Shown here: in pieces, positions 8,166 through 10,477 of the stretch | How the letters are laid out: each line of letters begins with the position of its first letter | How positions within the stretch are numbered: position 1 is the stretch's first letter | NCBI GenBank assembly: GCA_020444545.1 | Contig: JAHLKT010000003.1 | Span: 620,001 to 684,000, forward strand | Direction of reading: 5' to 3' | Source of the DNA: Desulfarculaceae bacterium | GTDB lineage: Bacteria > Desulfobacterota > Desulfarculia > Desulfarculales > Desulfarculaceae | Length of the DNA stretch: 64,000 nt | The notes under the pieces: model-generated | Databases searched by the model: none | The model's input: the letters and a program-made list of their open reading frames with translations, nothing else | Told to the model about the DNA's origin: nothing | Translations under genes and position numbers: made by a program

Positions 8166-8262
8166 TTTTCTTGGCCAAGCGCCGGGTTTTAGGCTATTTT
8201 TACAGCTTCAACGTGAACCGGGCGGCGGCAGCGGCGCGCCGCCCGCCAGCCAGGAGCGAGCC

Positions 8263-9429
8263 TTGAAACCGGTAAACCACCTCACCAACCAATTCGGCGA
8301 ATCGGTCATTCGCGGCATGAGCCGCGTGTGCGCCGCCAAGGGCGGCATCAACCTGGCCCAGGGCTTCCCGGACTGGGACACCCCCGAGGTGGTCAAGGAG
8401 GCGGCAATCAAGGCGATCCGCGACGGCTACAACCAGTACGCCGTGACCTGGGGCACCCCCAACCTGCGAAAAGCCATCGCCGAGCGTTGCGCGGCCTACA
8501 ACGGCTTCACGGTGGACCCGGAGACCGAGATCACCGTGACCTGCGGGGCCACCGAGGGCATGATCGCCGCGCTCAAGGCCATCATCAACCCGGGCGACGA
8601 GATCATCATCTTCGAGCCGTTCTACGAGAACTACGGGCCCGACACCCTGATGAGCGCGGCCACCCCGCGCTACGTGACCCTGCACGCCCCGGACTGGAGC
8701 TTCGACCCGGACGAGCTGGCCGCCGCGTTCAACCAGCGCACCAAGGCGGTGGTGATGAACACCCCTAACAACCCGACCGGCAAGGTCTTTTCCCGCGCCG
8801 AGCTGGAGACCATCGCCGAGCTCTGCCGCAAGTGGGACGCCTACTTCATCAACGACGAGATCTACGAGTACATCCTCTACGACGATTACGAGCACATCTC
8901 GCCGGCCGCCCTGCCGGGCATGAAGGACCTGGCCATCACCGTCAACTCCATGTCCAAGACCTTCTCGGCCACCGGCTGGCGGGTGGGCTGGGTCATCGCC
9001 CCGCCGCAGGTGACCAGTGCGGTGCGCAAGGTGCACGACTTCCTCACCGTGGGCGCGGCCCATCCCCTGCAAGAGGCCTGCGCCGCAGGCCTCATGCTGC
9101 CCGAGTCGTATTATCAAGGACTTAGGGGCCTATACACCGACTGCCGCGAGCGGCTGTTCAACGCGCTGGACCAGGCGGGTTTCCGGCCCAACAAGCCCGG
9201 CGGGGCCTATTACATCATTACCCAGGTGGGCCACTTCATGGAGCGCTTCGGGTGCGTGGACGACACCGAGTTCGCCTACAAGCTCATCGATATCACCGGC
9301 GTGGCCACGGTGCCGGGATCGAGCTTCTACTCCGACCCCGCCCTGGGCCGCGAGCAGGTGCGCTTCTGTTTCTGCAAGAAAGCCGAGACCTTGGACAAGG
9401 CGGCGGCGGGGTTGATGAAGATAGCCTAG
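8263..9429 (+). CDS. PLP-dependent class I/II aminotransferase (KAT/methionine transaminase-like)
   Basis: A fold-type I aminotransferase of about 388 residues. Conserved elements in order: INLAQGFPDWDTPE near the N-terminus, the cofactor-phosphate region CGATEGMIAA, the NNPTGKV motif, the DEIYEYILYDD strand that contacts the pyridine ring, and the Schiff-base lysine in NSMSKTFSATGWRVGW. The sequence around NQYAVTWGTPNLRKAIA resembles kynurenine/glutamine transaminase K and methionine aminotransferases (YbdL type), but substrate cannot be fixed from sequence. I start at TTG 8263, which has CAGGAG seven bases upstream; the next in-frame Met is at 8317 inside conserved sequence. Confidence 0.9.
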   Translation: MKPVNHLTNQFGESVIRGMSRVCAAKGGINLAQGFPDWDTPEVVKEAAIKAIRDGYNQYAVTWGTPNLRKAIAERCAAYNGFTVDPETEITVTCGATEGMIAALKAIINPGDEIIIFEPFYENYGPDTLMSAATPRYVTLHAPDWSFDPDELAAAFNQRTKAVVMNTPNNPTGKVFSRAELETIAELCRKWDAYFINDEIYEYILYDDYEHISPAALPGMKDLAITVNSMSKTFSATGWRVGWVIAPPQVTSAVRKVHDFLTVGAAHPLQEACAAGLMLPESYYQGLRGLYTDCRERLFNALDQAGFRPNKPGGAYYIITQVGHFMERFGCVDDTEFAYKLIDITGVATVPGSSFYSDPALGREQVRFCFCKKAETLDKAAAGLMKIA

Positions 9430-9480: not shown

Positions 9481-9502
9481 CTTACTCTTAGGTTAGAGTA
9501 AG
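9481..9502 (+). promoter_or_regulatory. hairpin overlapping the Shine-Dalgarno of the next small ORF
   Basis: CTTACTCT (9481-9488) and AGAGTAAG (9495-9502) form a perfect 8-bp stem with a six-base loop. The 3' arm runs into the AAGGAGG ribosome-binding site at 9500-9506, so the structure would partly sequester it. This could regulate translation of the small ORF that follows, or be the tail of a terminator for the aminotransferase, although no T-run follows. Confidence 0.4.
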
Positions 9503-9515
9503 GAGGAAGAGAGCC

Positions 9516-9605
9516 TTCGCCCGCAAAACCATCAGAATACTGATCCTGGCCTTGGGCGTTTGCCTGGTGCTGGCCGCTGGCGGGGTGGCGGTGCATTCCT
9601 GGTAA
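9516..9605 (+). CDS. 29-residue membrane or signal-peptide-like ORF with apparent TTC start
   Basis: An ideal Shine-Dalgarno (AAGGAGG, 9500-9506) is followed after nine bases by an ORF whose product, beginning at the TTC codon, reads as a perfect basic-then-hydrophobic helix: FARKTIRILILALGVCLV followed by LAAGGVAVHSW and a TAA stop. There is no ATG, GTG or TTG in frame between the upstream TAG and this helix. Either initiation is non-canonical, or this is a decaying small gene, or the resemblance is chance. The PEP-CTERM gene 260 bp downstream shows the same arrangement, which is why I list it. Confidence 0.3.
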   Translation, partial: FARKTIRILILALGVCLVLAAGGVAVHSW

Positions 9606-9811
9606 ACCGCGCCCAAACAAGCGTTACAAATGACGATTCACACAGGATTGCGCCGCCGCTTCGGCCTTGGGTTACGCCTCGCTTCGCTCCAGACCAATTA
9701 ATCCGCGTGATATTTCCTTGCCCTTCCCTCATTAATCCTTAACTTAATAGTAGGAATTTAACGAGGAGAGGTGCTTTCGCCTATCGCTATATAAAGGTAC
9801 TGGCCCTGGCC

Positions 9812-10477
9812 GTGGCCATCAGCTTCGCGGCCCTTCCTGCCTGGGGCGGAAACATCGACCTGCTCGACAGCGTGTGGTCCCCGGCCACCGGCCTGAGCAG
9901 CTACACGGTCTATAACGTCTTGCCCGGCTTGGACGTGACGCTCACCGCCAGCGGCGGCGCGGGCACCCTGTGGTGGGACTCCAACAGCGGCTTCGGGGTC
10001 AAGGGCGCCACCAACGACCAGATCGACAAGAACGAATCCATCCTGGTTAGCTTCAGCCAGCCGGTGACCCTGAACAGCTTCGAGCTCTACAACCTGTACA
10101 ACCGGGGGGGCTACTACGGCTACGACCCCGAGAAGGGCAAGGCCAATCTGAGCCCCGGACCCACCATCGACTTCCAGGCGGATTGGTCTCAGGTGTACGG
10201 CACGCCGGGGTACAAGCTGGTCAGCGTGGGCCTGGGCGGGGTGAACGAGGTCCTGTTCTACCCCGACAGCAGCAGCTATAGCAGCTACGGCGGCCACCAC
10301 GGCGGGCATCACGGCAGCAAGCCCAACTTCTCCCTGGGCGGGCTGGACGTGAACTACGGCGGCGGTGGCGGCGCGGTGCCCGAGCCCGGCACCCTGCTGC
10401 TGGTGGGCTCGGCTCTGCTGGGCGGCGTGGGGGTGCTGCGCCGCCGGCGCGGCGTCCACTCCCACCGTGAGGCGTGA
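9812..10477 (+). CDS. PEP-CTERM sorting-signal protein
   Basis: 221 residues from the first standard in-frame start (GTG 9812). The C-terminus is a textbook PEP-CTERM signal: VPEPGTLLLVGSALLGGVGV followed by LRRRRG, recognised by an exosortase that is not in this window; such proteins are delivered to the cell surface in exopolysaccharide-producing Gram-negatives. The body contains aromatic/Gly-rich segments and a histidine cluster (SSYGGHHGGHHGSK, about residues 155-168) that could bind metal. The start is problematic: the GTG gives a truncated signal peptide, whereas the open frame continues upstream through YRYIKVLALAVAISF to a TTC codon at 9776, seven bases after a GAGGAG. A signal peptide starting there would be complete. 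Confidence 0.8.
   Translation: MAISFAALPAWGGNIDLLDSVWSPATGLSSYTVYNVLPGLDVTLTASGGAGTLWWDSNSGFGVKGATNDQIDKNESILVSFSQPVTLNSFELYNLYNRGGYYGYDPEKGKANLSPGPTIDFQADWSQVYGTPGYKLVSVGLGGVNEVLFYPDSSSYSSYGGHHGGHHGSKPNFSLGGLDVNYGGGGGAVPEPGTLLLVGSALLGGVGVLRRRRGVHSHREA

Follow-up and report, generated by a model that had tools for sequence, protein, structure and literature searches.

Two neighbouring open reading frames (ORFs) of a Desulfarculaceae genome, here G000, carry TTC where a start codon would be expected, and the question raised by this locus is how their translation begins. The initial annotation had offered three answers: initiation at UUC, inactivation of the genes at the start codon, or an ancestral leader common to both neighbours. 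We analyzed the window, the whole 64,000-nucleotide stretch of G000 DNA in which these ORFs lie, along with a genus set composed of G000 and seven other genomes.

The two TTC sites of the window

The larger ORF (positions 9776 to 10477, 233 codons plus stop; all window features given here are on the plus strand) encodes a PEP-CTERM surface protein, referred to as family A. Its product matched PF07589 with an E value of 2.6e-5 and 24.6 bits against the curated Pfam cut-off of 20.7, and a motif scan placed the PEP-CTERM sorting motif at 10373 to 10447 (G000:C3:630373-630447). Exosortase (PF09721) was found in all four genomes searched, scoring 247.7 bits in G000, and the upstream neighbour, given as context only, is a class I/II aminotransferase gene (8257 to 9429; Pfam PF00155, E 4.1e-62). 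A Shine-Dalgarno (SD) AGGAG, read from the sequence, occupies 9764 to 9768, and TTC stands at the start-codon position (9776 to 9778), 7 nt after GGAG. An in-frame stop lies 12 codons upstream with no ATG, GTG or TTG between it and TTC, and the first downstream in-frame canonical codon is the 13th, a GTG within the hydrophobic stretch. The N-terminus FAYRYIKVLALAVAISFAALPAWGG (9776 to 9850) was judged by eye to be basic-hydrophobic and signal-peptide-like, and a simple hydropathy rule likewise picked it out. An out-of-frame GTG mini-ORF (MLSPIAI, 9771 to 9794), also found by eye, overlaps the start of the gene.

The second site belongs to a 29-codon ORF, FARKTIRILILALGVCLVLAAGGVAVHSW (9516 to 9605), which is a candidate gene only. 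Here, TTC (9516 to 9518) lies 9 nt from the end of the SD AAGGAGG (9500 to 9506, read from the sequence) and 10 nt from the end of GGAG, and the upstream stop is 9 codons off with nothing canonical in between. TTC GCC behind an SD, and no in-frame ATG, GTG or TTG ahead of the hydrophobic stretch, were thus confirmed at both sites, as the initial annotation had described them. The seven other genomes of the genus set yielded only weak matches to the 29-codon ORF (best E 0.037), and its start resembles that of family B, described below (TTC GCC CGY), by eye only. A screen of short ORFs, of the same kind as the signal-peptide screen reported below, returned 15 positions, among which TTC occurred once, at 9516, and a 7-nt SD was present only at the 9513/9516 site. 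This ORF may encode a small membrane protein or represent a remnant; it is weak evidence and should not bear the argument.

TTC at the aligned start position in relatives

A family A search returned matches at an E value of 1e-6 or better in 12 of 60 genomes, G000 included, some of them to the PEP-CTERM tail only. In three of them, namely, G000, G001 and G003, the aligned start position is occupied by TTC. The start region reads GGAG-AGATGCC-TTC GCC TAC CGC in G001 (same genus, 78% identity) and GGAG-TGGAGCC-TTC TTC GTC AAA in G003 (54% identity), and the same TTC start sequences are found in the public contigs JAIPEN010000015.1 (G001) and JANQFN010000126.1 (G003), which are Desulfarculaceae MAGs. 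Sequencing error in one genome was therefore rejected, since two further genomes of the genus also have TTC; the argument made earlier from two adjacent TTC sites is weak when taken alone, and it is the other genomes that now carry the point.

An ATG elsewhere in homologues, which the initial annotation had named as a refutation, was not seen: the other homologues compared carry a normal ATG or GTG at this very place. These are the G004 copy, beside the same aminotransferase (GGAG-GGGTCCA-ATG GGC AAG), G008 (Dethiosulfatarculus sandiegensis; GGAG-GACAGCC-ATG GCA CGT), G010 (GTG, 7 nt after GGAG), two copies in G011 (ATG, 6 nt from GGAG to the start) and G018 (GTG GCC CGC, without GGAG). The three TTC genes share a GGAG-to-start distance of 7 nt with G004, G008 and G010. 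The aminotransferase gene also adjoins family A in G001 and G004 and lies about 5 kb apart from it in G003. The G004 copy (L023) has kept ATG and lost its middle part and PEP box, and it looks like a decaying gene.

No canonical codon occurs between the upstream stop and TTC of family A in G000 and G003, and G001 has an in-frame TTG 26 codons upstream. By eye, an out-of-frame start precedes TTC in each of the three, the ATG of G001 being at the same offset as the GTG of G000 and the GTG of G003 lying 3 nt further upstream. In a family A tree of 9 rows, the support bearing on the number of TTC origins was 32/0, and TTC may have arisen once or more than once in this family. Of two scans of genome contigs for close relatives, the first returned none and the second 4 loci, and the plasmid collection gave no match.

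A second PEP-CTERM family, family B, is represented in G000 by a gene on the minus strand (G000:C2:479593-480294), the start region of which reads GGAG-AAGAGGAA-TTC GCC CGT. The G001 orthologue (82%) has the same start region with CGC instead of CGT, and the PEP-CTERM motif is present in the proteins of both families. Family B was found at 14 places in 20 genomes, with TTC at two (G000 and G001), GTG at six, ATG at five and a startless fragment at one. From GGAG to the start, both TTC genes and three of the six GTG genes have 8 nt, and the other three GTG genes have 9 to 10 nt; the GTG genes L213, L211 and L208 read GTG GCN CG at the 8-nt spacing. An in-frame canonical codon is present upstream of TTC in both species (TTG, 6 codons, in G000; ATG, 5 codons, in G001), in each case with no SD by eye. 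Directly ahead of their family B SD, G000 and G001 carry a GCGGC...GCCGC inverted repeat (L009 and L203, of which only L203 was folded).

Selection, frequency and translation machinery

We determined dN/dS by the Nei-Gojobori method, using the GTG-started family B pair L213/L211 as the control. Between G000 and G001, family A gave 0.38 over 225 codons and family B 0.24 over 240 codons, next to 0.27 over 238 codons for the control; family A compared against G003 gave 0.67 and 0.76. At the scale of the whole gene, dN/dS speaks for translation of the proteins. When only the first 24 codons were counted, it was 0.57 (family A, G000/G001), 0.27 (family B) and 0.06 (control), and the TTC genes are therefore under weaker constraint at their N-termini than the control. 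The codons directly after TTC show synonymous changes (TAT/TAC and CGT/CGC) with the basic residue retained, as would be expected for translation beginning at or before TTC, on very few codons. The occurrence of TTC in near relatives may be due to chance, as other N-terminal codons are also identical between them. Taken together, TTC takes the place of ATG or GTG in two families and more than one species, with the alignment and spacing preserved, and the proteins are under purifying selection.

The PEP-CTERM motif had 61 matches in seven of the eight genus genomes, and TTC is at the start in only a handful of these genes. A motif scan taking in the window, L001-L029, L105-L124 and L145-L194, which included some false frames and some non-genus loci, gave 78 PEP-CTERM-like ORFs, 73 with a recognisable hydrophobic N-terminus. 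TTC occupied the SD-directed position in five of these ORFs (three of family A and two of family B), and no other non-canonical codon was seen by eye in the start role among the ORFs scanned; three further rows listed as lacking a canonical codon have ATG slightly further on. A GGTCCG-like stretch upstream of the SD was noticed in several PEP-CTERM genes of the genus, e.g., L152, L147, L168 and L183.

We also screened about 864 kb of G000 (about 20% of the genome), consisting of the window and 40 stretches of 20 kb, 20 of which had been chosen for PEP-CTERM or tRNA genes or for flanking the window. An SD, a signal-peptide-like N-terminus and the lack of a possible canonical start nearby were combined at 32 positions. 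TTC accounted for two, 9776 and a site in L114 (~9740), the latter in a non-coding frame by eye; GCC accounted for three, and TTC is therefore unremarkable by count. No further convincing TTC start was found in this 20% of the genome. A filter for TTC at SD spacing that lacks canonical codons both upstream and shortly downstream, applied to all loci examined, left 18 rows; by eye, a signal-peptide-like protein begins at just two of them, 9776 and its G003 orthologue. The filter is blind to G001 family A and to family B because these have upstream canonical codons. Genome-wide, GGAGN{4,14}TTCGCC occurred 265 times in G000 versus 256 for the reversed control, and AGGAGN{5,9}TTCGCC occurred 28 versus 16 times in G000, a small excess, and 26 versus 22 times in G001. 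A first codon tally (TTC at 22 of 991 positions, behind several ordinary codons) was dropped, antisense frames being mixed in. Widespread UUC starts were seen neither in the motif counts nor in the screens: UUC at starts is rare and not a general reassignment. The one-genome statistics are weak, and the case rests on the comparison with relatives.

The tRNA set of G000 comprised 43 RF00005 matches, and aragorn gave 44 distinct rows, one of which is probably spurious. It includes a CAU tRNA with features of the initiator type, two further CAU tRNAs and one ordinary tRNA-Phe (GAA); no initiator tRNA with anticodon GAA was present among the 43 matches and 44 rows. Neither tRNA-Ile(GAU) nor tRNA-Ala(UGC) was seen among the G000 tRNA matches, so the set is incomplete, and these two possibly lie in rRNA operons absent from the assembly. 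Loss of IF3 was rejected, as IF3 scored over the cut-off in all four genomes searched. Its gene, infC, itself appears to start with AUA: AUA GCC AAG CAA follows a strong SD in four of four genomes (L252 in G000, L251 in G001, L250 in G003 and L253 in G004), with no canonical codon from the upstream stop to AUA in any of them. Thus, the genus keeps a non-canonical start elsewhere.

Hairpins pairing the SD and TTC were predicted in several leaders, and z-scores lay between -0.59 and 0.57 in all six, giving no support for them. An RNA family search over five loci returned two tRNA matches and one sub-threshold sRNA match. A programmed -1 frameshift from the out-of-frame family A start was also rejected, no slippery heptamer being found by eye.

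Proposed initiation at UUC weighed against other readings

The leading explanation, to which we give about an even chance, is that these PEP-CTERM genes really do start at UUC, with very low efficiency. Among its rivals, the one we rank highest, though unlikely, is re-initiation, in which ribosomes translate the out-of-frame mini-ORF and restart a few codons downstream at a near-cognate AUA, AUC, AUU or GUG. An out-of-frame start just before TTC is present in all three family A TTC genomes (GTG, ATG and GTG), the mini-ORFs end by eye in the signal-peptide region near an in-frame AUA (G000), AUA/AUC (G001) or AUU/GUG (G003), and use of AUA starts in the genus is indicated by infC. However, these out-of-frame starts are too near the SD (in G000 and G001 they follow GGAG by about 2 nt, and in G003 the start overlaps it), no such start is seen by eye in family B or the 29-codon ORF, and TTC at the aligned start position and spacing is left unexplained. 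Still less probable is that an upstream in-frame canonical codon is the true start and TTC is internal. Such codons are available in family B of both species and in G001 family A, but in family A of G000 and G003 the interval from the upstream stop to TTC contains none, and those of family B are without an SD by eye, do not occupy the same codon in both species and would bring three glutamates into the signal-peptide n-region.

Ranked between these two, and likewise improbable, is that the start codons have been lost, leaving genes silent or expressed at background level, with the constraint a trace of recent loss. The weaker constraint on family A in the comparisons with G003 (dN/dS 0.67 to 0.76), the lower constraint on both TTC families than on the control over the first 24 codons and the decay of the G004 copy despite its ATG all speak for such a loss. 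On the other hand, TTC is common to G000 and G001 in both families, with later divergence at dN/dS 0.38 and 0.24 and with intact frames, and under loss no one codon would be preferred in both families. Why TTC should occupy precisely the former start position, at the former spacing, in both families is explained by none of the three rivals.

Of the three options of the initial annotation, UUC initiation thus has the best support in the case of the PEP-CTERM gene, three genomes having retained TTC at the aligned position and spacing; purifying selection on the coding sequence speaks against inactivation at the start codon, and an ancestral leader common to both neighbours was not shown, since the 29-codon ORF is without a clear relative in the genus. 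We infer initiation at UUC, insertion of formyl-methionine, and low expression or IF3 control as its purpose. In such initiation, the strong SD at an ordinary distance (7 or 8 nt) would hold the 30S subunit so placed that the P site contains UUC, where the usual initiator tRNA, with anticodon CAU, would be accepted at low frequency despite two mismatches and against IF3 proof-reading. UUC could then act as a throttle, keeping a secreted protein scarce and tying its synthesis to IF3 activity, as does the non-canonical start of infC. The fuller proposition, that UUC is a naturally conserved start in one Desulfarculaceae genus, arose in two or more unrelated families of secreted proteins and acts as a throttle gated by IF3, with two mismatches to the initiator anticodon, is put forward tentatively, at somewhat less than even probability.

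If UUC does initiate, natural start codons go beyond those with two of the three bases of AUG, genes of this type are shortened or overlooked by gene finders, and a start with two mismatches offers a natural test bed for IF3 proof-reading and SD rescue. If it does not, these conserved secreted-protein genes have a hidden start.

Comparison with known systems

The infC gene of E. coli starts with AUU and is limited by IF3, and Hecht et al. in 2017 reportedly examined all 64 codons as starts in E. coli. Bacteria are not known to start genes with UUC in nature, and no naturally conserved UUC start was found in the literature searched, where "UUC start codon" and like phrases occurred in a single paper, on in vitro work. 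According to PMC7907450, no 30S complex formed on UUC in the complete E. coli system, and without IF3, subunit joining on UUC proceeded at 22.9 versus 25.6 per s for AUG with a 30% lower amplitude, 70S complexes forming at near the AUG rate. PMC13009471 describes conserved AUA and AUU starts with an extended SD in S. aureus, giving about 10% of AUG expression and up to 30% in rich medium, and an AUA start for S. aureus infC; according to PMC9845219, an engineered UUC start of petA affected cytochrome f levels in Chlamydomonas chloroplasts. An IF3-limited throttle on a surface protein would fit these published UUC, AUA and AUU data.

The TTC genes resemble infC of E. coli and S. aureus in having a conserved, IF3-disfavoured start behind a strong SD, and infC of the genus itself has AUA in four of four genomes. 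They differ in that AUU and AUA are one base from AUG and UUC is two, and in that they encode surface proteins rather than an initiation factor. The cvfC1 (AUU) and ccpN (AUA) genes of S. aureus likewise combine a conserved non-canonical start with an extended SD and lowered expression, but the starts of these genes were demonstrated by ribosome profiling and reporters, as described in PMC13009471, whereas the codon here is UUC and its use as a start is predicted from sequence. The engineered UUC starts of E. coli in vitro (PMC7907450) and of Chlamydomonas petA (PMC9845219) use the same codon but are laboratory constructs. Finally, both families share with PEP-CTERM/exosortase surface proteins the sorting motif and an exosortase gene in the genome, and they stand apart by the TTC start, which only a handful of the motif-bearing genes of the genus carry.
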